From IMG/VR virus record IMGVR_UViG_3300037042_004723, positions 1 to 64,000 of that record: a stretch of DNA of 64,000 nucleotides; one strand, 5' to 3'. Both the position numbers and the translations under genes were made by a program. Shown here in pieces: positions 23,634-52,581 of this stretch (within the stretch, counting starts at the first letter, position 1; every line of letters starts with the position of its first letter). The notes below the pieces were generated by a model. That model was not told where the DNA came from and did no database searches. It was given only the letters and a program-made list of their open reading frames with translations. The stretch is from a virus.

Positions 23634-23667
23634 TGAAAATCCGGGCGGGCTCAGTTGTAGTAAGGGC
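23634..23667 (+). promoter_or_regulatory. Class I promoter (reference example)
   Basis: TGAAAA (23634-23639), 16 nt, TGTAGT (23656-23661), 6 nt, ATG at 23668. The block around the second box is CTCAGTTGTAGTA in most copies. With a TSS about 7 nt after the -10 hexamer the RNA would begin at the AUG. Confidence 0.75.
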
Positions 23668-23901
23668 ATGGCAAGCAAATACGAGTGGGACCGAAACATC
23701 TGGACCGGCAATAGCATTGCCAGGGTGACGGAAAGCATCCGGCTGATCCGCGTGGGCGACGCCGAGGGGTTTCTCTACAGCGCGGAGGATTGGGGCGACC
23801 ATTCCACGGGGTATCCGGTCAAGGGGCCGTGGGAGAGCACCCCGACGAAAGCCATCCGCGAACTGAAAAAGGAAGCCCTCTCAGTTGTAGTGGTGCCATG
23901 A
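23668..23901 (+). CDS. Hypothetical protein ending in promoter-encoded SVVVVP
   Basis: 77 aa, MASKYEWDRNIWTGNSIARV... The last 35 nt of the gene are also the complete class I promoter of the next gene, which forces the C-terminal LSVVVVP; stop and next start overlap (ATGA). Function unknown. Confidence 0.65.
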   Translation: MASKYEWDRNIWTGNSIARVTESIRLIRVGDAEGFLYSAEDWGDHSTGYPVKGPWESTPTKAIRELKKEALSVVVVP

Positions 23902-24146
23902 GCAAAGTCACTCCCCGTAAGGCCAACCTCCGCACCCTGCACGCCGCTGGCACCTACTCCAACACCGAGGATTCTTGCGCCCGCCGGCTGGCCCGCGCAA
24001 TCCACGCTGCTGAGTCCACCTGCTGTTCCACGTCGTGGTCCGCGCAGGAGCGCGCCGAGACGTTTTTTAATGCCAACGGGCTGGCCCGTTCCCTCGATGC
24101 GTGCGCCCGGCTGGAAGCATTGCGGTTGCCCGATGCGGATAACTGA
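23898..24146 (+). CDS. Hypothetical protein (82 aa)
   Basis: MSKVTPRKANLRTLHAAGTYSN...; helical with a Cys-Cys pair. Leaderless from a promoter embedded in the previous gene. Its own TGA stop is the start of the TGAAAA box of the next promoter. Confidence 0.6.
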   Translation: MSKVTPRKANLRTLHAAGTYSNTEDSCARRLARAIHAAESTCCSTSWSAQERAETFFNANGLARSLDACARLEALRLPDADN

Positions 24147-24177
24147 AAATCCCGGCAACCCCAGTTGTAGTAAGTCC

Positions 24178-25446
24178 ATGAAGCTTCCCCTGACCATCGG
24201 CACCGCCCCGGACGGCGCGCTCGTCCAGCTTCCCATCGCGGCCATGCGCCGTCACATGCTGGCGCTTGGTGCGTCGGGCTCGGGTAAGACCGTGCTCTGC
24301 AAGGTCATCGTCGAGGAGTGCATCCGCAAGGGTCTTCCCGTCATCGCCATTGACCCGCAGGGCGACCTTGCCTCCCTGGCTATCGAGGAGGATTCGGCCA
24401 CGCTCGTTCGCATGGGCGTTGACCCTGGCATCGCGCGTGAGTTCCGCGCCAGGGTTGACGTGAAAATCTGGACGCCCGGTGCTACGCTCGGAATTCCCCT
24501 CTCGTTCACGCCCGCGATGAACGTGCCTACGGGCATCCGCGCCGAGGACCGTATCCGCGCGTTCGGTAGCGTGGCGACCTCGCTTGCCGCCATGGTCGGG
24601 GCCACCGACGAAACCACGTCCGTTGCATTTTCGATGATTCTTGAGTACGCCGACGCCAACAACCTGGCGTGCGAAAACATCAATGATTTCATCAACTTCC
24701 TTGCCGACCCGCCGGACCCGCTGGCGCGCAAGCTTGAGTCCGTCTACGACGCGAAGGCCCGCGCGAAGTCGCACAAGTCGTTTCTTCTCAAGACCTTGGG
24801 AGCTAACCGGCTGCTGTTCGATCTCGGCTGTCCCATCGATGTCAACGAGCTTTTCGGCCTGTACGTCGGCGGGCCGACGGACAACGGCAAGGCTCGGCTT
24901 TCCGTCATCTATCTTAACACCCTGACTTCGCAGGAGGATAAGGAGATTTTCATCGCGCTGCTCTGTTCGGCCATGTACCAGTGGATGCTGACGCTGGATT
25001 CTCAACTCTGGGGCTGTCTGCTGATCGATGAAATAGCTCAATACCTTCCGCCAGTTAGGAACCCTGCCAGCAAGAAAGGGCTCATGCTCTTACTTCGCCA
25101 GGCCCGCAAGTACGGGCTTTGCTGTCTGCTCGGAACCCAAAGCCCTGGTGATATCGACTACAAAGCATTGGGCCAGATCGGTACGGTTGCCATTGGCCGC
25201 ATTCTTGGCGAGCGCGCCTTGGGTAAGGTTGAGTCGCTGATCCGCGCCGCGCCCGGTACCAATGCTGATGAGATCATGGCTAGACTGCCTGCCCTGAAGC
25301 GTGGTGAGTTCGTGCTGATCAATCCCGACGAGTACGATGGGCCGATGGACACGCAGGTCCGTTGGCTCAGTACCAAGCATCGGGTCGTTTCCGCCGACGA
25401 ATTGCCTGGGATGGTTTCCAGGGAAGATCGTGAAAAGTTCGGCTAG
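24178..25446 (+). CDS. HerA/FtsK-type ATPase
   Basis: 422 aa. Walker A LGASGSGKTVLCK (30-42), IDPQGDLASL (conserved IDPxGE/D after the first helix), Walker B CLLIDEIAQYLPP, a GTQSPGDIDYKALGQIGT sensor segment and GEFVLINPDEYDGP near the end, all typical of HerA/VirB4/DUF87 helicase-like ATPases. Such rings translocate DNA, usually with a nuclease such as NurA; none is adjacent. Class I promoter, leaderless. The largest enzyme in the right-hand block. Confidence 0.85.
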   Translation: MKLPLTIGTAPDGALVQLPIAAMRRHMLALGASGSGKTVLCKVIVEECIRKGLPVIAIDPQGDLASLAIEEDSATLVRMGVDPGIAREFRARVDVKIWTPGATLGIPLSFTPAMNVPTGIRAEDRIRAFGSVATSLAAMVGATDETTSVAFSMILEYADANNLACENINDFINFLADPPDPLARKLESVYDAKARAKSHKSFLLKTLGANRLLFDLGCPIDVNELFGLYVGGPTDNGKARLSVIYLNTLTSQEDKEIFIALLCSAMYQWMLTLDSQLWGCLLIDEIAQYLPPVRNPASKKGLMLLLRQARKYGLCCLLGTQSPGDIDYKALGQIGTVAIGRILGERALGKVESLIRAAPGTNADEIMARLPALKRGEFVLINPDEYDGPMDTQVRWLSTKHRVVSADELPGMVSREDREKFG

Positions 25447-25500
25447 GCCAAAGGTCTTATCAAGGTTGAAAATCTTTGTTAGCTCAGTTGTAGTAAGCCC

Positions 25501-25695
25501 ATGAGCATCACAACGGTTGACGGAAAGAAGTGGGCCGAGGAGGAAACGGATGCGGCGACCCTGGCGTTTCTGATCTGGAAGCGGTGGGGCTGCGACATGG
25601 CCGGGGCGGCGGTGGCCTGGCGGCGGCTGCATCAGAATTCCTGCCCTGATGCGGAGTTCGAGAAGCTGGTGCAGCGGGCGGTGGCCCGGCGCTAG
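25501..25695 (+). CDS. Hypothetical protein (64 aa)
   Basis: Helical, Trp-rich (WKRWGCDMAGAAVAWRRLHQ). Class I promoter 6 nt before ATG. Function unknown. Confidence 0.6.
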   Translation: MSITTVDGKKWAEEETDAATLAFLIWKRWGCDMAGAAVAWRRLHQNSCPDAEFEKLVQRAVARR

Positions 25696-25760
25696 CCGTG
25701 GCCGGAGAGTTTTCCTGTGCGGTCGGTGAAAATTCAGGTCAGCTCAGTTGTAGTAGGGAC

Positions 25761-25982
25761 ATGAACAAGAACTACAAAGTCGACTACAAAGTCGGGTCGG
25801 TCATCGAGTACAGCCCGTTCGGCGGCGGTTGCCGGCGGGTGGTCGTCGAGGAGAAGGAGGACGATATCAAGAACGGTCGGCCTGGCTTCTCGGGGCATCA
25901 GGTCGGCGCTGGTCCTGGTGGCGGGCTGGGCGGCGGGGTGTGGGGCTACGATGATCAGATCATCCGGGTCGTCAGCAAGTAG
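25761..25982 (+). CDS. Gly-rich small protein (73 aa)
   Basis: MNKNYKVDYKVGSVIEYSPFGGG...; N-terminal beta strands resembling small DNA/RNA-binding barrels, then a GAGPGGGLGGGVWG loop. Class I, leaderless start. Confidence 0.6.
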   Translation: MNKNYKVDYKVGSVIEYSPFGGGCRRVVVEEKEDDIKNGRPGFSGHQVGAGPGGGLGGGVWGYDDQIIRVVSK

Positions 25983-25986
25983 ACCC

Positions 25987-26002
25987 GCGCAAGCCCTTGC
26001 GC
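25987..26002. repeat. Dispersed palindrome variant
   Basis: GCGCAAGCCCTTGCGC (central mismatch), directly after a stop codon and before the next class I promoter. Confidence 0.6.
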
Positions 26003-26044
26003 CGGTTCCCTGAAAATCCCGGCGTCCACAGTTGTAGTAGGACC

Positions 26045-26266
26045 ATGGACAATCCCAAGAATCGGCTCACGTTCTACCGCAAGTCGATCATCGAGTTGAT
26101 CAACTGCTCCCTCGAAGAAGCCCGGCTCGTCGAAGACCTCATGCGGTCCGAGAACGGCGGGGTACTAAGCCACCTGACCCGCGCCAAGTTCAAGCGGGAG
26201 GCGCTCAAGGCGCTGCGCCAGGTGCCGGCGATGCGCGCCGAGTTCCCTGCCTGGGATCCGTGGTGA
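26045..26266 (+). CDS. Helical hypothetical protein (73 aa)
   Basis: MDNPKNRLTFYRKSIIELINCSLEEARLVEDLM...; amphipathic helices. Class I promoter upstream. Function unknown. Confidence 0.6.
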   Translation: MDNPKNRLTFYRKSIIELINCSLEEARLVEDLMRSENGGVLSHLTRAKFKREALKALRQVPAMRAEFPAWDPW

Positions 26267-26347
26267 CACCCGGGCCGTCCCGGCCGTCAGGAGAGTTTTC
26301 TGCCACGGTCACCTGAAAATCCAGCCACCCTCAGTTGTAGTACCACC

Positions 26348-26539
26348 ATGAAAGCAACCTGTCCCGCGAACAAGAAGCACAATCAGTTCACGACCGTAGC
26401 TCACGTCATGGAGGAGTGGCTGGTCGACGACGCTGGCAACTTCATCAAAGTCAGTGCGTCGCTTCAGACGACCCACGGCCCTGATGCTGAAAATATCTGG
26501 ACCTGCGCCGTGTGCGGCGCAGAAGCGGAGGTCAAGTAG
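26348..26539 (+). CDS. Zinc-ribbon protein, copy A
   Basis: 63 aa. CPANKKHNQFTTVAHVMEEW and a C-terminal CAVCGAE make a Cys/His zinc site. Nearly identical to the protein at 28539-28730, with over 100 nt of almost exact DNA identity. Class I promoter; followed 2 nt later by the paired MSKA gene. Confidence 0.65.
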   Translation: MKATCPANKKHNQFTTVAHVMEEWLVDDAGNFIKVSASLQTTHGPDAENIWTCAVCGAEAEVK

Positions 26540-26541
26540 TC

Positions 26542-26784
26542 ATGAGCAAAGCAAGCGTCGTCGATATCGAAGCGTGCATGGCGAAGGTCAAGGCCCTCAC
26601 CCCCGAGCAGACCGACGAGGGCCTGCTCGATGAGGCCGTTCACCATGTCGCTTCGCAAGAGGCGAGAGAGGCCAACAACGGCGGGTTTCAGGCCCAGGTC
26701 ATCTTTCTTCTGGAGAAGGGGCTGACCGTCGAGGACGTGTTATTTCTGTTCGATGATTCCCCCACTCCTGAAAATACTCACTAG
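26542..26784 (+). CDS. Helical partner protein, copy A
   Basis: 80 aa, MSKASVVDIEACMAKVKALTPEQTDEGLLDEAVHHVASQEA...; paralogue of 28733-28981. Coupled to the zinc-ribbon gene (2-nt gap). Its final codons overlap the next class I promoter. Confidence 0.65.
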   Translation: MSKASVVDIEACMAKVKALTPEQTDEGLLDEAVHHVASQEAREANNGGFQAQVIFLLEKGLTVEDVLFLFDDSPTPENTH

Positions 26785-26828
26785 TCCAGTTGTAGTCACA
26801 TCAGAACCCAAACGAAAGAAGACGCACC

Positions 26829-27233
26829 GTGGCCAACAATTACCTTCAGTTCTCGTTCCTCGTTCCGCTCAAGACCAAGAAGGAGCGGACGTGGTTGACC
26901 AAGTTCCTGACGGATCGCCCGGAGGGTTTCTGGACCGCCAATCAGATCGACGACTGTGAAGATGTCGAGGACCGAGAGGTCGGGTTCCAGCATGAGTTCA
27001 GTGACGAGGGGGTGCTCATCTACGGGGAGGAGAATGGCGACACCGAGCAGGTGATCCAGATTCTCAAGCAGTTCCTCAAGGCGTCCGGCACCAAGCTGAC
27101 CAAGCTCGGGTTCTGCTACGCGCTGCCCTCGCTGCGCCCTGACGAGTTCGGTGGCGGGGCCATCCTGGTCAAGAAGACCGGCAAGGTCGAGTACATCGAC
27201 GCCAACGAGTGGCTCGCCGGCAAGCTGGCCTGA
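26829..27233 (+). CDS. Hypothetical protein (134 aa)
   Basis: GTG start. YLQFSFLVPLKTKKERTWLTKFL... reads as an alpha/beta protein with an acidic centre. The upstream class I box is about 45 nt away with no ATG at 6 nt, so this gene has a real leader (GAAAGAAG is the only SD-like tract). TGA stop opens the next TGAAAA box. Confidence 0.65.
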   Translation: MANNYLQFSFLVPLKTKKERTWLTKFLTDRPEGFWTANQIDDCEDVEDREVGFQHEFSDEGVLIYGEENGDTEQVIQILKQFLKASGTKLTKLGFCYALPSLRPDEFGGGAILVKKTGKVEYIDANEWLAGKLA

Positions 27234-27264
27234 AAATAACCCCTAGCTCAGGTGTAGTGAACAT

Positions 27265-27756
27265 ATGAGAATCACCGACGTGAAGAAGCTGGGCAAGGGC
27301 GATCAAGTCTACTGGAACGACCCCGCCGGCCCCGAGGGGTGCTCGCGCATCTACAACATCAACACCATCACGGTCTACCCAGGCGGCGTCGTCCACATCT
27401 GCGATGACCTGGGCGAGGTCGAGTGCTACGCCCGTGAGCTTCTGCCAGGGCTGCCCGACAAGCGCCCGACGCTCTGGGACAACAACGAAATCCAGTTCGC
27501 GCGGCTCCTCTGTGAGCTGGTCGCCAACTGCGACGACCTGAAGCTCCTTGAAGTCGCAGAGTCTATGGACCTCGACATGATCGACATTCGTCAGTTGTTC
27601 GACCGCGCCCACGATGTTTGGGAGGCGTCGAAGGCCAAGCACTGTCCGCCGCCAGAGCAGGCTGAGAACACCCGAAAGACGAAGCTTGCGAAGCGCATCG
27701 AGGCTGAAGCGAAGGCGGGTAATCCCCTGTTCGTCAGCTCGAATGGTCGCCGATGA
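27265..27756 (+). CDS. Hypothetical protein (163 aa)
   Basis: MRITDVKKLGKGDQVYWNDPAGPEGCSRIYNINTITVYPGGVVHI suggests a small N-terminal beta domain, followed by a helical C-terminal half. Class I promoter. Overlaps the next gene by ATGA. Confidence 0.6.
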   Translation: MRITDVKKLGKGDQVYWNDPAGPEGCSRIYNINTITVYPGGVVHICDDLGEVECYARELLPGLPDKRPTLWDNNEIQFARLLCELVANCDDLKLLEVAESMDLDMIDIRQLFDRAHDVWEASKAKHCPPPEQAENTRKTKLAKRIEAEAKAGNPLFVSSNGRR

Positions 27757-27953
27757 CCTTCAAAATCAACCGCGACGACAAGGAGAAGTGCCTCGGGTTC
27801 TTCTACCTCCGCCCAACCTACTGGGAATGGGGCGAGGTGAAGTGCAACGTGTGGTGGGGCCCCCGCCTTGGTATCATCGTCTGGAACGGCGTGGACTGGC
27901 ACCCCTACGAAGACTTCCAGCCCCACACTCTTATCGAGGTGCCGGGCAAGTAG
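27753..27953 (+). CDS. Trp-rich hypothetical protein (66 aa)
   Basis: MTFKINRDDKEKCLGFFYLRPTYWEWGEVKCNVWWGP...; eight Trp/Tyr in the central stretch, beta-rich. Translationally coupled to the upstream gene. Confidence 0.6.
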   Translation: MTFKINRDDKEKCLGFFYLRPTYWEWGEVKCNVWWGPRLGIIVWNGVDWHPYEDFQPHTLIEVPGK

Positions 27954-28024
27954 TCCTCGTGGCAGGAGTTTTCCGCCCGGGTAGAAAATTCGAAAGATTC
28001 CAAGGCCTCAGTTGTAGTTAGGTC

Positions 28025-28246
28025 GTGAACACCAACCAAGGAATTCCGATGACAGATGCCGAGAAGATCAAGACCCTAGAGTCCCGCGTCAAAAACACAG
28101 AGAACAGTCTCCGAGCTGTGGGAGGACGTCTAGAGCGCCTAGAGGAGGAGATGGCGCTCTGCCTCAAGTTCATGCGCGTCCAGGCCGAGAAGATGGCCAA
28201 GGAGAAGGATCCGGACTTCAAGGTCCACCCCAGCTACGAAGCCTAG
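28025..28246 (+). CDS. Coiled-coil protein (73 aa), leaderless GTG
   Basis: GTG start 6 nt after TGTAGT; TDAEKIKTLESRVKNTENSLRAVGGRLERLEEEM is a clear heptad coiled coil, SlyX-like in appearance. Shows that non-ATG starts are accepted at the leaderless position. Confidence 0.6.
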   Translation: MNTNQGIPMTDAEKIKTLESRVKNTENSLRAVGGRLERLEEEMALCLKFMRVQAEKMAKEKDPDFKVHPSYEA

Positions 28247-28278
28247 AAAAAACCAGCTAGCCCAGTTGTAGTAGAACC

Positions 28279-28542
28279 ATGGACAAAACAAAGAACCTCT
28301 GGCTGTACCGAGTTCTGGAAACCGATGACGATGGCGATCCGCTCGATCATGGCGCTGCTCGTGCCGACACGCACGATGAGCTAATCGGGTACCTGTCGAA
28401 GCACCTCACCGAGATCGTCGGCGAAGGTGTGGAGCTGACCGTTCGCGTCTACCCCACCTATGACGTGAAGTCCGGCGTCATGCGGTCGGTCAATATGTAC
28501 GATACAAAAATCGGGACCAGCTCAGTTGTAGTGAACCCATGA
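28279..28542 (+). CDS. Hypothetical protein, copy A of a duplicated cassette
   Basis: 87 aa, MDKTKNLWLYRVLETDDDGDPLDHGAARADTHDEL... Nearly identical to 29032-29277. Here the frame runs on through the next promoter and gains the tail SVVVNP, then ATGA overlaps the next start. Confidence 0.65.
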   Translation: MDKTKNLWLYRVLETDDDGDPLDHGAARADTHDELIGYLSKHLTEIVGEGVELTVRVYPTYDVKSGVMRSVNMYDTKIGTSSVVVNP

Positions 28543-28730
28543 AGTCAATCTGTCCCACGAGCAAGTCTCACAAGCGGTTCACGACGGTGGCTCACGTCAT
28601 GGAGGAATGGCTGGTCGACGAGACTGGCAACTTCATCAAAGTCAGTGCGTCGCTTCAGACGACCCACGGCCCTGATGCTGAAAATATCTGGACCTGCGCC
28701 GTGTGCGGCGCAGAAGCGGAGGTCAAGTAG
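28539..28730 (+). CDS. Zinc-ribbon protein, copy B
   Basis: 63 aa, paralogue of 26348-26539 (CPTSKSHKRFTTVAHVMEEW...CAVCGAE). Leaderless from a class I promoter lying inside the previous coding sequence. Confidence 0.65.
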   Translation: MKSICPTSKSHKRFTTVAHVMEEWLVDETGNFIKVSASLQTTHGPDAENIWTCAVCGAEAEVK

Positions 28731-28732
28731 TC

Positions 28733-28981
28733 ATGAGCAAAGCAAACGTTGTCGATATCGAGAAGTGCATGGACAAGATCAAAACCTTCACCCCTGAGCA
28801 AACCGCCGATGGCTTGCTCGATGAGGCCGTCCATCACGTCGCTTCGCAAGATGCGACCGAGGCCAACAATGGCGGGTTCCAGGCGCAGGTCACCTACCTC
28901 CTGGAGCGCGGCTGCACCGTCGAGGACGTGCTGATGCTCCTCGATAGTTCCATCGATCTGGAGATGGTTCTCGGCGACTGA
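28733..28981 (+). CDS. Helical partner protein, copy B
   Basis: 82 aa, MSKANVVDIEKCMDKIKTFTPEQTADGLLDEAVHHVASQDA...; paralogue of 26542-26784 with the same 2-nt spacing to the zinc-ribbon gene. The two-gene pair has been duplicated as a unit. Confidence 0.65.
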   Translation: MSKANVVDIEKCMDKIKTFTPEQTADGLLDEAVHHVASQDATEANNGGFQAQVTYLLERGCTVEDVLMLLDSSIDLEMVLGD

Positions 28982-29031
28982 AACAATCCACTAGCTCAGG
29001 TGTAGTGAAACCATAGCGTTGTAGTAGAACC
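28982..29031 (+). promoter_or_regulatory. Doubled class I promoter (recombination scar)
   Basis: A first box reads CTCAGGTGTAGTGAAACCAT then AG instead of a start codon; immediately after comes a second, truncated box CGTTGTAGTAGAACCATG that serves the gene at 29032. The second copy lacks its TGAAAA element. This is what unequal crossing-over within promoter repeats would leave. Confidence 0.6.
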
Positions 29032-29277
29032 ATGGACAAAACAAAACCACTCTGGCTGTACCGAGTTCTGGAAACCGATGACGATGGCGACCCGCTCGAT
29101 CATGGCGCTGCTCGTGCCGACACGCACGATGAGCTAATCGGGTACCTGTCGAAGCACCTCACCGATCTCGTCGGCGAGGGGATCGAGCTGACCGTTCGCG
29201 TCTACCCAACGTACGACGCGGAGTCCGGTGTCATGCGGTCGATCAATATGTATGAGACGAAAATCGGGACCCGCTGA
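29032..29277 (+). CDS. Hypothetical protein, copy B of a duplicated cassette
   Basis: 81 aa, paralogue of 28279-28542 but ending with an ordinary stop (KIGTR). DNA identity to copy A extends through most of the gene, so the duplication is recent. Confidence 0.65.
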   Translation: MDKTKPLWLYRVLETDDDGDPLDHGAARADTHDELIGYLSKHLTDLVGEGIELTVRVYPTYDAESGVMRSINMYETKIGTR

Positions 29278-35139: not shown

Positions 35140-35288
35140 GGGATCTGTTAACCACACGATTCCACAGGAAATTCACAGGGTGATTTTCTTGACCACCCTG
35201 ATTATCGCGTAGTACGAGCGTTGTCCGCGAAGTAAATGAAAAAAACGAGCTGCCCTGGTTGTAGTAGGGGTGCGGAAGGAGCCTTGAT

Positions 35289-35990
35289 ATGGATGAATCT
35301 ATGATGGCAGGCAAGGATGACACGCTCTCGTTCGAGGATATGAAGCCGGAGGAGCGTGCGATCCTCCAGGCGCTGCAAGCTGCTCATGATGCTGGGCAAA
35401 ACGTCCTGCGGATCGCTGAGATCATGTCGGCGAACGGCTGGGATGACGTGGACGACCACGAGTGTCCCGATGGCAACTGCTCGGTGTGCAGTGCTGCGTT
35501 GCGTCTTGGAAACAGCAAGGTTCGCAACAACTTGCGCCGCCTCATGCGGTGCGGACTGATCCACCGCCCGCTCGATGGCTCCTACGCCCTGACGCCTGAG
35601 CCCCGCCGAACCGCTCCACAGGCTGAGGCGGTTCCCAAGCTGTTGCGAATCAAGCGGAACCCCAGAGAACTGAATGTTTCCGAGGTCCGCATCCTGCGGG
35701 GCGTGGAGTACGGATCGCTCAATGTCAAGATGGTCGAGTCGGTCAAGAAGACGGACTGCACCATCTACAACGCCTGCTTGTCCCAGGCGATCTCCGGCAA
35801 GTGGGCGGGCTTCTCCTGCGCCGATTGCACGGCCTACGATGCGCCTACCCAGTTCCAGAGGGAGTGCGATGTGCTCGCCCTGCGTGCGCTCGATACCGCC
35901 GCAGAGATGGTCGAGGAGCACGGCAAGGTCAACCGCATCCGTGGCGTGAAGCCGGGCGCGGATGCCAAGCGGACCGAGGCCGGCGAGTAG
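35289..35990 (+). CDS. Winged-helix regulator with zinc motifs, paralogue 2
   Basis: 233 aa. EERAILQALQAAHDAGQNVLRIAEIMSANGW...SKVRNNLRRLMRCGLIHRPLDGSYALTPE is the same winged-helix arrangement as 33740-34150, here with an inserted CPDGNCSVC zinc-type loop and a C-terminal region with CTIYNAC and CADC. Unlike its neighbours it has a leader with AGGAG 8 nt before the ATG; the class I box lies further upstream. Confidence 0.65.
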   Translation: MDESMMAGKDDTLSFEDMKPEERAILQALQAAHDAGQNVLRIAEIMSANGWDDVDDHECPDGNCSVCSAALRLGNSKVRNNLRRLMRCGLIHRPLDGSYALTPEPRRTAPQAEAVPKLLRIKRNPRELNVSEVRILRGVEYGSLNVKMVESVKKTDCTIYNACLSQAISGKWAGFSCADCTAYDAPTQFQRECDVLALRALDTAAEMVEEHGKVNRIRGVKPGADAKRTEAGE

Positions 35991-41205: not shown

Positions 41206-41736
41206 CTAGCCCAGCAGCTGGGCCAGTGCAGCCTTCGCCCGGCTGGCCATGGCCACGGTCACGCCCACCTCACGGGCCGCATCGGTCCACGACTGGCTAC
41301 GCATGAACGCTTCAACAACGGCACGGTGAACCGGCTTGAGCGACGCAACGGCTGCGCGAACCCCCGCAATCTCCTGGCCCCTCACCATGTCGAGGTGCGG
41401 ATCACTGTCGGCGGGCAACGCCTCAGCCACGGGGATGCTGCGCCCGTCGTCGCTCACGACCTGGGGCATCTGAGACTCGAACCTGTGATGAGCCAAGCGC
41501 AGCCAGTTGTGTGCGCGGTACTTCGCAAAGCACGTGAAGTGTGACCGGGCCGAACCCTTGCCCGCATCGAAGGTACGCACGCCGTAGTCGAGCGCCTCGA
41601 CCATGACGCGGCTCATGCACTCGTCGAGGTCGCTCTCGGTGGAGTAGCGCGACCGGCGCAGCACGTTAGCCACGGTGGCGCGCATGGCGGGAAGGACGGT
41701 TAGAATCTCGGAGTGAATCGCTTTGGTGTTCAGCAT
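41206..41736 (-). CDS. ECF-like sigma factor 1
   Basis: About 176 aa. Region 2: STESDLDECMSRVMVEALDYGVRTFDAGKGSARSHFTCFAKYRAHNWLRLAHHRF, matching the ECF pattern FDxxxGSxxxxFxxxAxxRAxxxLR. Region 4 at the C-terminus: LKPVHRAVVEAFMRSQSWTDAAREVGVTVAMASRAKAALAQLL, a sigma-type HTH. Start MLNTKAI at 41736 is fixed by a class II promoter 7 nt away. Most divergent of five paralogues in the window; expected to bind host core RNA polymerase. Confidence 0.75.
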   Translation of the reverse strand: MLNTKAIHSEILTVLPAMRATVANVLRRSRYSTESDLDECMSRVMVEALDYGVRTFDAGKGSARSHFTCFAKYRAHNWLRLAHHRFESQMPQVVSDDGRSIPVAEALPADSDPHLDMVRGQEIAGVRAAVASLKPVHRAVVEAFMRSQSWTDAAREVGVTVAMASRAKAALAQLLG

Positions 41737-41772
41737 GGTAAGAATCATATACTAAGGGATTGTCAATGTCAA
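41737..41772 (-). promoter_or_regulatory. Class II promoter of sigma gene 1
   Basis: TTGACA (41767-41772), 17 nt, TATGAT (41744-41749), 7 nt, ATG. A second TTGACA is directly repeated at 41761-41766. Near-consensus sigma70 promoter giving a leaderless mRNA. Confidence 0.75.
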
Positions 41773-45664: not shown

Positions 45665-46179
45665 GGTTCTACTACAACTGAGGCAGCCTGGATTTTCATG
45701 GATTCGACGGCAAGGTCTTCGCTCTGATACACGTCCTTCCCATCGATCATGATGATGCGCGTGCGGATGGGCACCCACACGCCGTCACGGAGAGCCCTTG
45801 CCTCGCTCCACGTGGTCCGGTCGGCGAGCACGTAGCCCCTGCCAACCTTCTGAACCCACCCGATGATCGTCCCTGGGAACCTGTCTGTGTCGTACCAGAT
45901 CGGCGCGGTGACGTTGGCGTAGACGGTATCGCCCTCGATCCCGCCCTTGTCCTTGAAGTCACCCACGATGACGTAGGGGACCGTCGCGCCCTTGCCCATC
46001 ACGTTGTGCGCGTTGCGCTCGGTGTTGGCCTCGGTCAGCTTGTAGCCGTTGTAGCCGTAATCGCCCTTCCACATCGACGAGTGGCGGTAGGCGTACGAGT
46101 AGAGGTGAGCCGAGACCTTCGCCCCGTTCACGGCCAGCTGGACCGTCCTGCTGCGTAGCGAGTAGATGTAGATTCCCAT
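45661..46179 (-). CDS. Hypothetical protein ending in promoter-encoded SVVVEP (172 aa)
   Basis: MGIYIYSLRSRTVQLAVNGAKVSAHLYSYAYRHSSMWKGDYGYNGY..., beta-rich. Terminal AASVVVEP is imposed by the downstream class I promoter embedded in the gene. Own class I promoter 6 nt before ATG. Confidence 0.65.
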   Translation of the reverse strand: MGIYIYSLRSRTVQLAVNGAKVSAHLYSYAYRHSSMWKGDYGYNGYKLTEANTERNAHNVMGKGATVPYVIVGDFKDKGGIEGDTVYANVTAPIWYDTDRFPGTIIGWVQKVGRGYVLADRTTWSEARALRDGVWVPIRTRIIMIDGKDVYQSEDLAVESMKIQAASVVVEP

Positions 46180-46211
46180 GACCTAACTACAACTGGGCTC
46201 CCTGGTATTTT

Positions 46212-46319
46212 CATGAAAAAACCAGCCCGCCTAGTTGTAGTAAGACCACAGGAACAAACAAGCCAACCGGCCAAAAAATAAACACCCCAAACCACAGGAA
46301 TCAATCAATGCTCATATAA
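46212..46319 (+). ncRNA. Class I transcript without a start codon
   Basis: TGAAAA and TGTAGT are intact but the ATG position reads ACA. The leader has an AGGA-ATG pair for a 3-codon frame (MLI). Either an RNA gene or the long 5' leader of the frame at 46320. Confidence 0.4.
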
Positions 46320-47141: not shown

Positions 47142-47345
47142 ATGAAGAAGCTGACCACCAAGAAGCTGGACGCGCACATCTCCTCGGTCTACTACCGCGT
47201 GGCCGATGGCAAGGCTATCAACATCATGGACATCGGCAAGGTGTTCAAGGCCGCGCGTGATGCCTATCAGGCCATGCCGGATCTCGCCGTCGTCGAAGCG
47301 GCCATCATCGGCGCGGTCGCCAAGTACTGCAGGGCGGTGAACTAA
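47142..47345 (+). CDS. Hypothetical protein (67 aa), first of four
   Basis: MKKLTTKKLDAHISSVYYRVADGKAINIMDIGKVFKAARDAYQAM... Class I, leaderless. Last base of the stop overlaps the next ATG (TAATG). Confidence 0.6.
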   Translation: MKKLTTKKLDAHISSVYYRVADGKAINIMDIGKVFKAARDAYQAMPDLAVVEAAIIGAVAKYCRAVN

Positions 47346-47581
47346 TGGACACCACCAAGAAGCAAACCGTCACCTGCATCGTCCGCGACAATCACCGTCA
47401 TGGCTACCCGGATCCCCTGATCTATGTGGTCGACGTGTCCGATCCACAGGACGAGGTCGAGGTACTCAAGGCTGTCACCGAGTCTCGCCGTGCGGACCTC
47501 GGTGGCGACGACAAGCTCGATCTAACCATCCTGTTGGTCTTTTCCGGCACCCTCAACACAATTTCAGATTGGCGCGAGTGA
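47345..47581 (+). CDS. Hypothetical protein (78 aa)
   Basis: MDTTKKQTVTCIVRDNHRHGYPDPLIYVVDVSDPQDEVEVL... Coupled to the previous gene (TAATG). Alpha/beta; no family recognised. Confidence 0.6.
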   Translation: MDTTKKQTVTCIVRDNHRHGYPDPLIYVVDVSDPQDEVEVLKAVTESRRADLGGDDKLDLTILLVFSGTLNTISDWRE

Positions 47582-47585
47582 ACTA

Positions 47586-47783
47586 ATGCCCCATTTCACA
47601 TTCACCGTCACCCGCGAGACCACCGAGAGCGTGACCGTCACCGTCGAGGCTGACTCCATCAAGGAGGCACATCGCAAAGCGCTGGCCACCCAGTACGGGA
47701 TTCGAGGGTGGGCATATGACGAAGGGAATCACCCTCGCGAGGCATACATCCCCGACGAGGACGATTACAAGGAGGAGGTCTAG
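47586..47783 (+). CDS. Beta-rich small protein (65 aa)
   Basis: MPHFTFTVTRETTESVTVTVEADSIKEAHRKALATQYG resembles the small VxVTRxxTEsxxVxVeAdsxxeA family of phage/mobile proteins. Four-nt gap from the previous stop. Confidence 0.6.
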   Translation: MPHFTFTVTRETTESVTVTVEADSIKEAHRKALATQYGIRGWAYDEGNHPREAYIPDEDDYKEEV

Positions 47784-47785
47784 CC

Positions 47786-47995
47786 ATGCGCGAATGGCGC
47801 GGATACTGTGAACGCTGCGGCGATAAGTCGTTCAGCTACACGATGTCGCGGTTCAACACTCAGTTGATCTGCGGCCCCTGCAAAAAGAAAGAACGCGAGC
47901 ACCCTGATTACCAGCGCGCGGCGGATGCCGAGCTGGCGTCGTTGAAGCGTGGTGAGCGCAACTTTCCGGGCATCGGGAAGCCGAAGGACCTCTAA
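47786..47995 (+). CDS. Conserved small zinc protein (69 aa)
   Basis: REWRGYCERCGDKSFSYTMSRFNTQLICGPCKKKEREHPDYQRAADAEL...GERNFPGIGKP. The CxxC...TMSxFNTxxICxxCxxxExxHPxY...NFxGIGxP signature is widespread in phages and proteobacteria. Role unknown; last gene of the operon. Confidence 0.75.
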   Translation: MREWRGYCERCGDKSFSYTMSRFNTQLICGPCKKKEREHPDYQRAADAELASLKRGERNFPGIGKPKDL

Positions 47996-48014
47996 CCAAG
48001 AAGGAGGAGGGGGC

Positions 48015-48030
48015 GCGCAAGCGCTTGCGT
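48015..48030. repeat. Dispersed palindrome (one mismatch)
   Basis: GCGCAAGCGCTTGCGT, 6 nt before a terminator hairpin. Confidence 0.65.
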
Positions 48031-48035
48031 CGATA

Positions 48036-48055
48036 GAAAACTCTTAGAGTTTTCC
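48036..48055. terminator. GAAAACTC-type hairpin
   Basis: GAAAACTCTTAGAGTTTTCC between convergent genes. Confidence 0.7.
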
Positions 48056-48077
48056 GTTAAGGGCCTTAGCCCGAGGG

Positions 48078-48299
48078 CTACCAGCGCCCCTCGCCATACC
48101 CGTAATCGGGTTCGATGGGCTCGTCGACGTCGGCCTGCGAGTACCCCGTGAGGATCTCCGGGCGGTAGCGACTGAGCTTCGCCGCCCGACACTCGTCGCA
48201 CACCCGGCAGAGCGGGATGCCCTGCGCGTCGTGCTCCCACCACGAGCCGTCGGACTTAGTGTGCGGGTGCCGCTTCAGATGCTCGCTCGGTTGCTTCAT
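48078..48299 (-). CDS. Conserved small zinc protein (73 aa)
   Basis: MKQPSEHLKRHPHTKSDGSWWEHDAQGIPLCRVCDECRAAKLSRYRPEILTGY...DEPIEPDY. The GIPLCRVCDxCRxxKLxxYRPEVLT signature is a widespread bacterial/phage hypothetical family. Class I, leaderless. Confidence 0.75.
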   Translation of the reverse strand: MKQPSEHLKRHPHTKSDGSWWEHDAQGIPLCRVCDECRAAKLSRYRPEILTGYSQADVDEPIEPDYGYGEGRW

Positions 48300-48368
48300 G
48301 TAGCTACTACAATTCAGCTCGCCCCAATTTTCACTGAAAATACCAGCTAGCCCAGTTGTAGTAGGTAC

Positions 48369-48566
48369 ATGAAGACGATGACCATCAAGGTTCCCCAGTC
48401 CACCCGCCGCTCGGGCGCTGCCATCGCGGCGATGCACCGCAATCCCGTCATCATGCGCCACCGGCTACAGCCTCGGGGCGGGGCGCGCAACGTCCAGGCG
48501 TCCTACTTCGACGAGATCATCGTCGAGGATGAGTCGCACTGGTTCGACGAGGACCGGGACGGCTGA
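48369..48566 (+). CDS. Hypothetical protein (65 aa)
   Basis: MKTMTIKVPQSTRRSGAAIAAMHRNPVIMRHRLQPRGGARN... basic N-terminal half, acidic C-terminus. Class I. Confidence 0.58.
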   Translation: MKTMTIKVPQSTRRSGAAIAAMHRNPVIMRHRLQPRGGARNVQASYFDEIIVEDESHWFDEDRDG

Positions 48567-48647
48567 TCAGTCCTGGCACTGACCGGGACGGTTCCCGGCG
48601 GATGATAGCCTGAAAGGCGGTTCGACCCCGCCCAGTGCCACCGCAGC

Positions 48648-48667
48648 GGAAAACTCTAAGAGTTTTC
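48648..48667. terminator. GAAAACTC-type hairpin
   Basis: GGAAAACTCTAAGAGTTTTC between convergent genes. Confidence 0.7.
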
Positions 48668-48721
48668 TAAGCCGCGCTGGGCTTGGTAGCCCGTCACCCT
48701 TGGTAGGGCTTGCGCTGTCGC

Positions 48722-49027
48722 TCACGCCGGGCGGGAGACGTGGCCCTCCGTTCCGTCGTCGAAGGTGATCGGATCGTGCTCCCCGCAGAGCTTGGCGACC
48801 GTGAGCCCATCGGGCAGGTTGGGCACGCTGAACAGGAGCGAGCCACGGTCGAACACCCAGGGCTCGAAGGTGATCGGCGTGTCGAGCGGAATGTCGATGG
48901 CAACGCTCATCGCATCGAAGGTCAGCACGTCACCCTTGACGGTGAGTCTGCGAACCAGCCTGCCCGAGTAGAGGCAGCGAATTTCCGCACCATGGTGCCC
49001 GTTCATCAAGTCAGCGAAAGTCTTCAT
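48722..49027 (-). CDS. Beta-rich hypothetical protein (101 aa)
   Basis: MKTFADLMNGHHGAEIRCLYSGRLVRRLTVKGDVLTFDAM... Class I, leaderless. Function unknown. Confidence 0.6.
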   Translation of the reverse strand: MKTFADLMNGHHGAEIRCLYSGRLVRRLTVKGDVLTFDAMSVAIDIPLDTPITFEPWVFDRGSLLFSVPNLPDGLTVAKLCGEHDPITFDDGTEGHVSRPA

Positions 49028-49097
49028 GGTTCTACTACAACTGGGCCAACCGAAACTTTCACCTGAAAACCTGAGCTAGCTCAGTTGTAGTTAGACC

Positions 49098-49679
49098 ATG
49101 AGCATCATCGTTAAAATCATCCAGGACGACAACGCAGAGTCGCCCCGCACCTTCGACAACGTTGGCGTCATGGCGTGTTGGCACCGACGCTACAACCTTG
49201 GTGACGTGCAGCCTAAGGGCGAGGATCCGGCCGAGTGGCTCAAGGAGAATGCCCCCAAGGGCTCAGTGGCGCTTCCCCTGTATCTGTACGATCACAGCGG
49301 GATCACCATGAGCACGGGCTCCTTTGGTGACGTGTGGGATTCCGGCCAGGTCGGCTGGATTGTCGCCACGCCCGACGCAATCCGTAAGAACTTCATGGTC
49401 AAGCGCATCACGGCCAAGATGCGCGCAACCGTTGAGGAAATCCTCAAGTCCGAAGTGAAGATTTACGACCACTACCTCACGGGCAACGTGTGGGGCTACA
49501 CCATCGAATCCGTCAAGGATTGCGATTCGTGCGGCCACGAAACCAAGGGGGACGAGGACGTGGACGATTCGTGTTGGGGGTTCTTCGGCGATGATCTGGC
49601 CTTCACCGGGATCAAGGATCACGTGGACGCGAAGTATCACGAAGCTCTCGAAGCAGCGTGGGACATGCGGTTCCGGTAG
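49098..49679 (+). CDS. Conserved phage protein (193 aa)
   Basis: RYNLGDVQP, LPLYLYDHSGITMSTGSFGDVWDSGQVGWIVATPDAIRKNF, LKSEVKIYDHYLTGNVWGY match a family widespread in phages and mobile elements (YLYDHSGxTxSTxPFxxxWDSGQVG...YLxGxVYGF). Activity unknown. Class I, divergent from 48722-49027. Confidence 0.75.
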   Translation: MSIIVKIIQDDNAESPRTFDNVGVMACWHRRYNLGDVQPKGEDPAEWLKENAPKGSVALPLYLYDHSGITMSTGSFGDVWDSGQVGWIVATPDAIRKNFMVKRITAKMRATVEEILKSEVKIYDHYLTGNVWGYTIESVKDCDSCGHETKGDEDVDDSCWGFFGDDLAFTGIKDHVDAKYHEALEAAWDMRFR

Positions 49680-49712
49680 GCGGACCGGCGGGGTTCGTTG
49701 CCTCGCAGGCTT

Positions 49713-49740
49713 GGAAAACTCTGGCCCATAGGGAGTTTTC
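49713..49740. terminator. GAAAACTC-type hairpin
   Basis: GGAAAACTC, GGCCCATAGG loop, GAGTTTTC. Confidence 0.65.
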
Positions 49741-49796
49741 TTGGCCGCGCCCGCCGGGCGGCCAAGGCTACGGCTTGTCCTTTACCTCGGCCACGG

Positions 49797-50204
49797 TTAC
49801 GTTGAACGGGCCGCTTCGATTTGGTGAGCGCGCCACTCTTGGTAGCCGAGCCGCGTGTCGCCGTTGGCTACCTCGTGCTGCCAATCTTCCTCGGGGTACG
49901 CCCACGTCAGCAGCACCCAGACCTGGGATTCGCCGCCTTCGTAGTCATCCGGGATGACATCAAGCCGGTTGCCATGCTCGTCGAATGGGCGGAGGTCAAC
50001 GCCCTCCAGCGCGCCACGGACTGCGTGAGCAATTTCATCCTGATCAATGTGATCGGGCACGTTGACATCATTGAGCATGTCGTCGAAGGCGCTCTCGATG
50101 GTTCCGCCAAGGTATGCGCCGACCAGGCATTCACCGGGACGGTTGTGATGGTCCTGTAGGTAGTCCGAGAAGCACGTGTCGATGTAGCGAGCGTTGATGG
50201 TCAT
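49797..50204 (-). CDS. Hypothetical protein (135 aa)
   Basis: MTINARYIDTCFSDYLQDHHNRPGECLVGAYLGGTIESAFDDML... helical, acidic. Class I promoter upstream. Confidence 0.6.
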   Translation of the reverse strand: MTINARYIDTCFSDYLQDHHNRPGECLVGAYLGGTIESAFDDMLNDVNVPDHIDQDEIAHAVRGALEGVDLRPFDEHGNRLDVIPDDYEGGESQVWVLLTWAYPEEDWQHEVANGDTRLGYQEWRAHQIEAARST

Positions 50205-50273
50205 GGTCCTACTACAATTCAGTTCATCGGGATTTTCACTGAAAATTATAGGATACTCGGTTGTAGTAAGGTC

Positions 50274-50486
50274 ATGGAGTTCTTCAGCGAGAAGGTTCGG
50301 CGCATCGCGTATCTGCGCATGTATGGCAGAACGGTTGAGGAGATTCTCAAGCAGGTTGAGGCCACCGAGACTGAGCTGAGGCTGCTCGTGGCGTGCGCAG
50401 ATCTGTTCATCGACTACTCGCCGTTCGATCCGCCCAAGCGGACGGAGCCCATCTCGCCGGTCAGCGGGGAGTTCACGGCCCGCTAG
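50274..50486 (+). CDS. Possible HTH protein (70 aa)
   Basis: MEFFSEKVRRIAYLRMYGRTVEEILKQVEATETELRLLVACADLFI: the YGRTVEEILKQVEATETELRLL segment has helix-turn-helix spacing. Class I, leaderless. Confidence 0.55.
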   Translation: MEFFSEKVRRIAYLRMYGRTVEEILKQVEATETELRLLVACADLFIDYSPFDPPKRTEPISPVSGEFTAR

Positions 50487-50502
50487 GGCTTTGCGTGTAG
50501 AA

Positions 50503-50521
50503 GAAAACTCTTAGAGTTTTC
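50503..50521. terminator. GAAAACTC-type hairpin
   Basis: GAAAACTCTTAGAGTTTTC between convergent genes. Confidence 0.7.
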
Positions 50522-50551
50522 TTAACCGCACCCGCTTGCGCGGGCTCGGGC

Positions 50552-50719
50552 CTAGTAGCCCCGGTCATCCCCTTCCTTAGCACGATCTTTCCAGGCATCC
50601 CAGTCGAACCCGGAGTCATCACCCTGGGCCATCATGCGGGCCACGGCGGCCCACGAGCACGCCGGGGGCTCGACGGTGGACGGGGCGGGTTTCTCGGTCT
50701 GCTTCTTCGTGTTGCTCAT
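50552..50719 (-). CDS. Small hypothetical protein (55 aa)
   Basis: MSNTKKQTEKPAPSTVEPPACSWAAVARMMAQGDDSGFDWDAWKDRA... ATG 6 nt after a class I box. Function unknown. Confidence 0.58.
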   Translation of the reverse strand: MSNTKKQTEKPAPSTVEPPACSWAAVARMMAQGDDSGFDWDAWKDRAKEGDDRGY

Positions 50720-50752
50720 GTAGCTACTACAACTGAGCCCGCCCGGATTTTC

Positions 50753-51001
50753 TCAAGAGCCGAACTTTTTATCAGAGCCTGCGTCCCGCCAGGTGTACGA
50801 CTTCGTTGTCGGCTTCTCTGGCACTTGTTGCGGGTCGATTCTTCCGAGGGACGCACTCGGATCGCCGGCCTTGTATTTCTTACTGGTCATGCCGAGATCG
50901 CGCAGCCGCTTCTCAATCTCCTTTAGAGTTTTCTCGGATGGCTTGTTGAGCCATGGCGTTACGATGGCTTCGCGGATGGACTCGATCAGCGACTTGAGCA
51001 T
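50753..51001 (-). CDS. Hypothetical protein (82 aa)
   Basis: MLKSLIESIREAIVTPWLNKPSEKTLKEIEKRLRDLGM... basic helical. Second gene of a two-gene unit, 12 nt after the previous stop, with CAGGGA next to the start. Confidence 0.58.
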   Translation of the reverse strand: MLKSLIESIREAIVTPWLNKPSEKTLKEIEKRLRDLGMTSKKYKAGDPSASLGRIDPQQVPEKPTTKSYTWRDAGSDKKFGS

Positions 51002-51013
51002 TCCCTGGGTATA

Positions 51014-51460
51014 TCAGAGAGCCGCGACAAGCGCGATTGCCTTGCCGAAGTTGGCGACATCAGGCAAGGCGAAGCTGTGCGCCGCCACCGTGCGGGCGAA
51101 CTCCACGACCTGGGCAACGGTGACGTAGGGGAGCACGTCGTCACCGCTGAAGCGCGGGTCAGGGTTGAACCACTTACGCTTTGTTCCCCAGTCCTCGCCA
51201 CAGACCACCCACGGCTCATCAAACGCCTCGGGATACCACGCAGCCGCCTCGAAGGTCGGCTCGTCGCCCGGCTTCCAGTAGCCACGGCCGACGTTGCTGT
51301 ACGCGCCAGAGTGCCACTGAACGCTCAGGGTCATCCCATTCTCGAAGGTGACGAGCAGCCCCGTCTGTGGGCCACCGTCGCGCTCGAAGCACGGCTCAAC
51401 CTCCTGCACGGGGAGGTTGGCGGAACCGAGGGAGTCAGCGAGGGTCAGGTGGTTCATCAT
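51014..51460 (-). CDS. Hypothetical protein (148 aa)
   Basis: MMNHLTLADSLGSANLPVQEVEPCFERDGGPQTGLLVTFENGMTLSVQWHSGAYSN... A beta-rich conserved-looking domain with VWCGEDW-like EPWVVCGEDWG. Class I promoter 6 nt before ATG. Confidence 0.6.
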   Translation of the reverse strand: MMNHLTLADSLGSANLPVQEVEPCFERDGGPQTGLLVTFENGMTLSVQWHSGAYSNVGRGYWKPGDEPTFEAAAWYPEAFDEPWVVCGEDWGTKRKWFNPDPRFSGDDVLPYVTVAQVVEFARTVAAHSFALPDVANFGKAIALVAAL

Positions 51461-51544
51461 GGCGTAACTACAACTGAGCTTATCTGGATTTTCATGTAAT
51501 CGACAGACGCCCGCGCCGCTTGATGCGTGACGGCCCTGAACATA

Positions 51545-51564
51545 GAAAACTCTTAGAGTTTTCC
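51545..51564. terminator. GAAAACTC-type hairpin
   Basis: GAAAACTCTTAGAGTTTTCC between successive leftward units. Confidence 0.7.
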
Positions 51565-51596
51565 GATGCCATCACGGCGCGGTGCGCCTTGGGCCC

Positions 51597-51821
51597 TTAG
51601 TAGCCTCCACCTTCTGCGCGGTCAGCGCACGGGTCACACTGGTATCCCCTGGCGCGGTCAGCCGGCGTGAGCCTGTTTGGCTTGCGACACGTGGGGCAAG
51701 GCAGGTTGCGAGGGTTGCTCGCGGTTGCGGCGCGAAGGGCAGAGTTCCCGCCGGGGTCGGCGAAGTCGCAACCGTCGTGATCCGACCAGTCGTCGCCGAT
51801 TTCGTTGTAGTAGTTGGACAT
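51597..51821 (-). CDS. Zinc-ribbon protein (74 aa)
   Basis: MSNYYNEIGDDWSDHDGCDFADPGG...LPCPTCRKPNRLTPADRARGYQCDPCADRAEGG: CxxC...CxxC ribbon with the PCPTCxxPNxLTPxDxxRGYQCDxCAD pattern common in phages. Class I. Confidence 0.7.
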   Translation of the reverse strand: MSNYYNEIGDDWSDHDGCDFADPGGNSALRAATASNPRNLPCPTCRKPNRLTPADRARGYQCDPCADRAEGGGY

Positions 51822-51856
51822 GAAGCTACTACAACTCAGCCCGGCCGAATTTTCAC

Positions 51857-52120
51857 TCAATTCGCGCTGATTGCCGGCCATTGCTGGGCCTTGATCAGGC
51901 CGGACATGGACGGGTCATCCGACGGCTCCCATCCTTCCGCAAGGAGCGCATCGCACGCCTGGCGGAGCTGTTGACAGGCACCTCGCAGATGCGACGAGTC
52001 GCCACCACGCGCAGCTCGGTTAGCGCGCACCATCGCAAGCTTGGCCGACCAGAAGTCAGCGAGTAGCTCAGTCCACAGGTCGAGCTTGCCGTATCTCATC
52101 GCGATTTCCCTGGTGTTCAT
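51857..52120 (-). CDS. Helical hypothetical protein (87 aa)
   Basis: MNTREIAMRYGKLDLWTELLADFWSAKLAMVRANRAARGGDS... four-helix style. Class I, leaderless. Confidence 0.6.
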   Translation of the reverse strand: MNTREIAMRYGKLDLWTELLADFWSAKLAMVRANRAARGGDSSHLRGACQQLRQACDALLAEGWEPSDDPSMSGLIKAQQWPAISAN

Positions 52121-52193
52121 TTTGCTACTACACCTGGGCTTGCTCAGATTTTCAGGCAATCGACAGACGCCTGATCAGCGCACTTCTGACAGA

Positions 52194-52213
52194 GAAAACT
52201 CTAAGAGTTTTCC
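52194..52213. terminator. GAAAACTC-type hairpin
   Basis: GAAAACTCTAAGAGTTTTCC. A C9 homopolymer follows at about 52243-52251. Confidence 0.7.
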
Positions 52214-52289
52214 GACGCACGGCAGTAACGGGGAGCCCGCCGCCCCCCCCCTTCCCGGCCGCACTCGCCGGGTGGGCTAGCCGTTATTT

Positions 52290-52499
52290 TCACTCCGCGT
52301 AGAGCACGTGGCCTTCCTGGCGCACCTTGCCAGCCCGCACCAAGATCCCCACGATGCTCTGGAACTGACCCAGCGTGCAGCCCTGGCCCATGAGCACGGC
52401 ATACAGCGGACCCTCGGGGGCACCGTCCGGACCCATCTCCTTGATGGTATCGAACACGGCAGCGATGACAGCGATGACGGCCTTTTGTTGGTTGCTCAT
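52290..52499 (-). CDS. Winged-helix-like small protein (69 aa)
   Basis: MSNQQKAVIAVIAAVFDTIKEMGPDGAPEGPLYAVLMGQGCTLGQFQSIVGILVRAGKVRQEGHVLYAE: APEGPLYAVLM...LVRAGKVRQEGHVLY has the winged-helix layout of small phage regulators. Class I. Confidence 0.6.
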   Translation of the reverse strand: MSNQQKAVIAVIAAVFDTIKEMGPDGAPEGPLYAVLMGQGCTLGQFQSIVGILVRAGKVRQEGHVLYAE

Positions 52500-52581
52500 G
52501 TACCTACTACAACTGGGCTAGCCTGGATTTTCAGGCAATCGACCGAGCGTATTTCTGACACTCGGGACGCCCACGGCCAGA

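Follow-up and report, generated by a model that had tools for sequence, protein, structure and literature searches.

A uniform promoter class in a myovirus genome, probably read by phage-encoded sigma factors of the extracytoplasmic function type

Described systems and the present locus

The sigma factor gp47 of Salmonella phage 7-11, in which region 4 is present, redirects the host core RNA polymerase to late promoters of the form GTAAtg-(16)-aCTA, and in distant relatives of 7-11 the promoters have changed along with the diverged sigma factor (PMC8948821). The sigma factor gp36 of phiEco32 turns the host core to genes of the middle and late classes at tAATGTAtA promoters (PMC8948821, PMC4331800). 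The window analysed here, the first 64 kb of the 197,279-base virus record IMGVR_UViG_3300037042_004723 (G000), contains a large class of sites of the form TGAAAA-16-TGTAGT-6-ATG, termed class III, besides the host-type promoters of class II. The class III sites are probably promoters, most of them leaderless, of one or more phage sigma factors of the extracytoplasmic function (ECF) type that redirect the host RNA polymerase, and would constitute a middle class of genes.

The system resembles that of 7-11 in having a phage sigma factor with region 4, here predicted from the fold, a bipartite promoter and a change of promoter between relatives. It differs in scale, with about 70 mostly single-gene promoters and five sigma paralogues compared with eight late-gene promoters and one sigma factor in 7-11, in the letters of the promoter and in its leaderless starts, which are predicted here and not described for 7-11. 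The six promoters of phiEco32, by comparison, have one element and no -35 box, and gp36 is without region 4 homology. No homology of the sigma factor encoded at 60348 to gp36 or gp47 was found, as a tblastn search of 50,697 phage records yielded nothing at E 0.01. The ECF factor sigma-L of M. tuberculosis has the -10 consensus TGN(C/A)AG and a best assayed spacer of 6 nt (PMC6372665); it is likewise a two-domain sigma factor with T-12, G-11 and a 6-nt spacer, but it is bacterial, serves its own regulon and faces letters other than the AGT or TTA found here at -9 to -7. With T4, the phage shares the type of capsid protein and, as proposed here, the redirection of the host core in time classes (PMC2988021). 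The predicted transcripts are similar to the leaderless transcripts of bacteria, mycobacteria among them (PMC7148126), in that the RNA starts at the start codon with no Shine-Dalgarno (SD) sequence, whereas here this state is predicted from geometry and applies to a whole phage regulon served by a single uniform promoter.

Phage sigma factors that redirect the host core (phiEco32, 7-11), bipartite promoters and promoter change between relatives are already known; the novelty lies in the number of promoters, their predicted single-gene leaderless layout, the set of sigma paralogues and the genome-wide change of letters on orthologous genes.

A rigid two-box motif

With the consensus TGAAAATN9CTCAGTTGTAGTA, equally written TGAAAAT-N9-CTCAGTTGTAGTA, and up to five mismatches allowed, 72 class III sites are found across the whole record, 69 of them within the window and 60 within 23,634-52,540, on both strands. 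At a threshold of 11 bits, a position weight matrix yields 78 sites in G000 and 0 in a mononucleotide shuffle. The strict pattern GAAAA-N12-CAGTTGTAGT-N5-CATG has 32 matches in the window, compared with 0.00 in 100 dinucleotide shuffles. A chance origin of the motif is excluded. These counts bear out a preliminary description of the window, made from its letters alone, which had proposed a class of about 70 copies on both strands. The range of 23.6-52.5 kb given there holds for the 60 sites of the main cluster and is too narrow for the class, which extends to 57.4 kb and has lone copies at 68.7, 70.6 and 92.9 kb.

23634..52540, both strands: main class III cluster of 60 sites (consensus scan, matrix, spacing and ORF-start counts)
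TGAAAA starts, plus strand: 23634 23864 24144 25467 25727 26011 26314 26769 27231 27991 28245 28505 28979 29258 30005 30219 30990 32487 32729 33032 34233 34693 36578 38177 40906 42675 43173 43978 44557 46214 46450 47108 48335 49064 50240
TGAAAA starts, minus strand: 30861 30958 34184 36577 38176 39272 39444 39738 40600 40904 42674 43170 43975 44546 45698 46213 47095 48333 49061 50238 50753 51494 51855 52154 52533
23634..23670, plus strand: typical class III promoter with perfect consensus up to ATG, TGAAAATCCGGGCGGGCTCAGTTGTAGTAAGGGCATG (consensus scan, strict pattern)
46177..46213, minus strand: class III member of a divergent pair, the two -35 hexamers abutting at a 0-bp gap (TTTTCA|TGAAAA)
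46214..46241, plus strand: partner promoter of 46177..46213, no start codon at +6
35238..35291, plus strand: leadered case (site 35,236), with promoter, AAGGAG SD and ATG at 35289 (23 nt on), opening a 233-aa open reading frame (ORF)
53660..57371, minus strand: rightward class III extension among sigma genes, 5' ends 53698, 54736, 56760 and 57371, AGCACAGTTGTAGTG or a close sub-variant

The near-invariant columns of the matrix are GAAA (-33 to -30), C-18, A-15 and TTGTAG (-13 to -8). Of the 55 cases in which GAAA lies 5-29 bp ahead of AGTTGTAGT, 52 have a gap of 14 bp, which corresponds to TGAAAA-16-TGTAGT. A start codon stands exactly 6 nt past TGTAGT at 65 sites (60 ATG, 4 GTG and 1 TTG), and 54 ORFs of the cluster, with a median of 82 aa, open exactly at the predicted +1, gene starts being taken from a simple calling script. 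The few sites that have no start codon at +6 are read as leadered, and some carry an SD ahead of a later start. In 10 divergent pairs, the -35 hexamers are 0-2 bp apart. Few domains are known among the 52 regulon proteins scanned: a HerA-like ATPase, a tyrosine recombinase, HicA, DUF932, DUF3846 and SWIM.

The nearly invariant position relative to ATG, and the palindromes (TTTTCA.TGAAAA) made by divergent -35 boxes, would also suit an operator, or an RNA-level translation signal ahead of start codons, that is no promoter at all. This reading is highly improbable: non-divergent single sites hold one TGAAAA only, the start codon is displaced at some sites, one of them with an SD, the spacing is that of a promoter, and host-type promoters lie at the same distance from ATG.

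At 26.3-29.3 kb, near-duplicate blocks are present, 26512-26784 and 28703-28981 having upstream sequence in common and 28279 and 29032 a common promoter and start; they apparently reflect a recent tandem duplication that included the promoters.

Host-type promoters and predicted leaderless starts

The host-type promoters TTGACA-17-TAnnnT of G000 lie 6-7 nt ahead of ATG and serve three genes of one sigma group (sigma-A) and the gene of another (sigma-B).

41737..41772, minus strand: host-type promoter of sigma-B, TTGACA-17-TATGAT-7-ATG
53160..53194, minus strand: host-type promoter of sigma 52638, TTGACT-17-TACAAC-6-ATG
54307..54342, minus strand: host-type promoter of sigma 53803, TTGCAT-17-TAAGGT-7-ATG
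58589..58623, minus strand: host-type promoter of sigma 58031, TTGACT-17-TACAAC-6-ATG

With the host-type promoters at the same distance from ATG, class III is most naturally read as giving leaderless transcripts, and the earlier prediction of leaderless mRNAs from the 6-nt distance is thereby calibrated within the same record. The last base of the -10 hexamer is at -7, and +1 would therefore be the A of ATG. SD motifs accompany 6% of called starts in the cluster, 4% in the sigma region and 20-37% elsewhere, on rough gene calls. From the geometry, we infer that most class III copies give leaderless mRNAs.

Small genes behind host-type promoters at 52.6-64 kb of the window have the common start ATGCTGAAC(CAC), that is, MLNHT, and the class III genes of a related phage, G003, have ATGAGCAA in common. 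The first codons of a gene may have a role in leaderless initiation or in promoter escape.

A family of ECF-type sigma factors

Five related ECF-type sigma ORFs, each with sigma2 and a predicted sigma4, lie in or beside the cluster, as identified by Pfam, NCBIfam, PHROGs and PDB profile searches.

60348..60932, minus strand: ECF-type sigma factor of the sigma-A group, closest to the sigma factor of relative G002 (53-55%)
58031..58588, minus strand: ECF-type sigma paralogue, sigma-A group
53803..54306, minus strand: ECF-type sigma paralogue, sigma-A group
52638..53159, minus strand: ECF-type sigma paralogue, sigma-A group, a close paralogue and not a Pfam region 2 match
41206..41748, minus strand: sigma-B, second orthogroup, inside the cluster, with orthologues also inside the cluster in G002 and G003 (refined profile)

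The proteins are 167-194 aa long and are predicted to consist of sigma2 and sigma4 only, joined by a short linker, as in the ECF architecture of about 160-200 aa. PF04542 (region 2) scores above its cut-off for 60348 and 58031, and also in G002 and G003, with 53803 below it; a refined profile adds 41206-41748 and the orthologues G002 50337, G002 55589, G003 71878 and G003 76802. The ECF superfamily model is the top NCBIfam match for most of the sigma factors. With TIGR02937 (curated cut-off 42.9), the G002 orthologue scores 50.9 bits, above the cut-off, and 60348 of the window 41.1 bits, just below. Searched against the PDB, the sigma-A group profile finds ECF sigma factors (CnrH 2e-6), and the PHROGs match is weak and general (phrog_1740, E 8e-9). 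The AlphaFold model shows four helices (sigma2), a disordered linker and four helices (sigma4); Foldseek and VIA-align lists are headed by ECF sigma factors, with structural matches spanning residues 17-191, and the sigma4 fold matches the domains 3hug and 3vfz. The full-length root mean square deviation is large because domain placement differs, and single domains fit at about 2-4 Å.

GAA-type -35 elements are typical of ECF promoters. Class III likewise has a GAA-type -35 box, two boxes in rigid spacing and G in place of A at -11, and its -10 core T-12 G-11 matches the -10 consensus of sigma-L, unlike the sigma70 -10 element. The suggestion of an ECF-like signal made in the preliminary description finds its counterpart in proteins whose profile matches (TIGR02937, PF04542 and, in the PDB, CnrH and sigma-E) and predicted fold point to the ECF type. 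The accompanying statement that the motif is unlike the sigma70 consensus holds for the letters, above all G for A at -11; the geometry equals that of sigma70 when written as NTGAAA-17-TGTAGT.

A phage-encoded RNA polymerase as reader of the motif is extremely improbable. Many large phages encode their own, and the 197-kb record may be incomplete, but no rpoB or rpoC domain was found in it, and two boxes spaced 16-17 bp apart are better explained by sigma2/sigma4. A search for a T7-type RNA polymerase carries no weight, as the control genomes gave no match.

Among further candidates, ORF 64278-64808 (22% identity, PF04542 E=0.02) was rejected as a sigma factor, being unsupported by the refined profile (E=0.89), and the region-4-like matches 166954-167904 and 170018-171061 proved to be HNH/endonuclease proteins.

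Promoter change among related phages

Relatives were found by a search based on the major capsid protein (MCP), which gave 75 loci. The sigma family is rare: among 2.9 million viral contigs, the search method used found it only in G002, its near-identical second record 31820_000001, and G003. G002 (175 kb) has 64 matrix sites in which the core TGAAAA/TGTAGT is kept, and encodes a single sigma-A and a single sigma-B. In G003 (200 kb), the sites number 43 and have the altered form CTGAAATTCT...CTGAGGTGTTTAC, in which TGAAA, CT-AG-TGT and the spacing are kept and the 6-nt distance is found in 40 of 43; its boxes read TGAAATTC/GTGTTTAC, with letters changed in both boxes at the same positions. Neither the G000 nor the G003 matrix finds any site in the other of these two genomes. 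In G003, the -35 boxes of divergent pairs are exactly 10 bp apart in 5 of 5 pairs (for example, 65129/65136). After masking of class III, no further dominant ATG-linked class was found in G000, G002 or G003.

Orthologous genes carry the promoter version of their own genome in 13 G000/G002 pairs and 6 G000/G003 pairs, three genes doing so in all three phages. That two relatives with orthologous sigma factors have the same geometry, with a genome-specific version on orthologous genes, agrees with the earlier view of a dedicated phage regulon signal.

The best candidate reader of class III is the protein encoded at 60348-60932, because in regions 2 and 4 it comes closest to the sigma factor of G002, which would have the same letters to read. 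The -10 box is taken to be read by the loop that joins the last two sigma2 helices; in the alignment this loop is alike in 60348 and G002 (KGSIVSW and RGSFESW) and is TDLKRF in G003, a divergence to be expected if the loop reads that box.

Middle genes of T4 are served by MotA/AsiA, where the present phage has two-box promoters and several ECF-type sigma factors. A comparable arrangement, in which the housekeeping holoenzyme works with a phage activator or sigma-remodelling protein and TGAAAA is the activator box, would accord with the T4-type capsid protein of G000 (phrog_138), with the sigma70 geometry and with the 4 of 6 matches to each hexamer. It is nevertheless very unlikely, as there is no A at -11 and the -10 box changes between G000 and G003 just like the -35 box; a swap of activator would keep the -10 box sigma70-like, so that its change speaks against an activator.

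An alternative (ECF) sigma factor of the host could also read class III, the phage sigma factors serving other promoters. A scattered TGTAG[ACG]TA variant in G000, G001 and G002 is in keeping with this, as is the G001 contig, which yielded no sigma factor; that contig, however, probably lacks this region. The strict motif turned up at a single locus when 84,980 bacterial and archaeal genomes were searched, though its pattern would miss G002 too. The sigma genes are in or beside the cluster, and the promoter letters shift with the phage sigma factor between relatives. A host reader is therefore unlikely.

With phage ECF-type sigma factors as the preferred readers, the following course of transcription, including its start sites, timing and pairing of sigma factors with promoters, is predicted from sequence. 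Host RNA polymerase with the housekeeping sigma factor would first transcribe the phage sigma genes from the TTGACA-17-TAnnnT promoters. One or more phage ECF-type sigma factors would then displace the host sigma factor on the core enzyme, the sigma4 domain reading TGAAAA at -34 to -29 and the sigma2 domain CAGTTGTAGT around -12. RNA would begin at the A of ATG, 6 nt past the -10 box, and some 60 small, mostly single-gene units would be switched on together as a middle regulon. Among related phages, the sigma factor and all its promoters would have drifted together.

Several observations weigh against this reading or its details. Sigma-B shows the same pattern as 60348, and sigma-A and sigma-B covary with the motif equally well. 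The promoter of gene 60348 is ambiguous. Region 4 is matched by sequence at E=0.02 (PF08281), below the Pfam cut-off, and the confidence of the AlphaFold model is moderate (pLDDT 77, pTM 0.43), its domain placement being unreliable. The system is carried by only three independent genomes, the contigs of which are possibly incomplete. G001, whose MCP is 93% identical, is without the cluster and the sigma factors but has 8 TGTAG[ACG]TA-type sites. G001 was considered as a natural deletion and rejected, since synteny places its contig ends exactly at the edges of the segment formed by left arm and cluster; because the ends flank exactly the missing region, the contig is probably incomplete and provides no usable negative. 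G008 was likewise discarded as a negative, since it is probably one half of a genome and the sigma factor is found in the other half, 31820_000001. In G004, G005 and G006, which are distant and possibly incomplete, no sigma region 2 above the cut-off and no motif were found. The strict class III pattern gave no outside match in viral contigs, which for G002 is expected because it differs at -16/-15.

It has long been asked how a regulator can change its specificity in step with dozens of target sites, and the three phages provide a natural case, with the same genes, geometry and orthologous sigma factors, core letters that are alike in G000 and G002 and a G003 version that differs in both boxes. 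It is conceivable, though we hold this tentatively, that duplicated ECF sigma factors and a whole regulon of 40-70 single-gene leaderless promoters were rewired together, leaving relatives with promoter languages foreign to one another; the extra paralogues of this phage may each read their own subclass. The probably leaderless genes of the regulon form a set of unusual uniformity, and the system would offer compact orthogonal sigma-promoter pairs.

An ATG-linked repeat in G006 and G010 was rejected as a promoter, as it proved to be a CRISPR-like array (L071/L070) with the repeat GTTGAAAAGATGCTCGGATCTTTGGAATTCCGAGAC every ~73-78 bases in at least 6 units; in G006, array units occur at both contig ends, at about 38-419 and 175,802-175,880.

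Variant sites in the left arm

The preliminary description had placed a variant of the motif at 7107, 7484, 13596 and 15847. TGTAG[AG]TA is present upstream of 7484, 13596 and 15847, with a further site upstream of 22389; the site at 7107 reads TGTAGTTA, not TGTAGATA.

7485..7517, minus strand: left-arm variant promoter GAAATTTTCTCATGGCTCGATTGTAGATAGGTC-ATG
13597..13629, minus strand: left-arm variant promoter GAAAG...GACTGTAGATAGAGC-ATG
15848..15880, minus strand: left-arm variant promoter GAAAG...AATTGTAGATAAGCC-ATG
22390..22422, minus strand: left-arm variant promoter GAAAA...AGTTGTAGGTAGAGC-ATG
7108..7141, minus strand: left-arm class III-like site TGAAAG...AATTGTAGTTAGGAT-ATG
14900..14933, minus strand: left-arm class III-like site CGAAAA...CGTTGTAGTTAGGGC-ATG

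Promoters of the form TGTAG[ACG][TC]A, with the -35 geometry of class III, number 5 in G000 (4 with a start at 6 nt), 8 in G001 and 13 in G002, and hardly occur elsewhere. The left-arm variant may represent an older subclass, with another sigma paralogue as its reader.

Other genes of the phage

G000 is a myovirus, with portal, sheath and baseplate proteins besides its T4-type capsid protein. An SNF2-type helicase ORF at 961-3804 of the window is split by an intein with a homing endonuclease, and Hint and LAGLIDADG domains are also present in a second ORF, at 9019-10779. Elsewhere in the record, a UvsX-like recombinase with an HNH insertion is encoded at 117354-119471 (L011) and a 1712-aa portal ORF with HNH endonuclease insertions at 142551-147689 (L013). 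A 1076-aa phage protein with Kelch repeats is encoded on the minus strand at L009:15176-18406.

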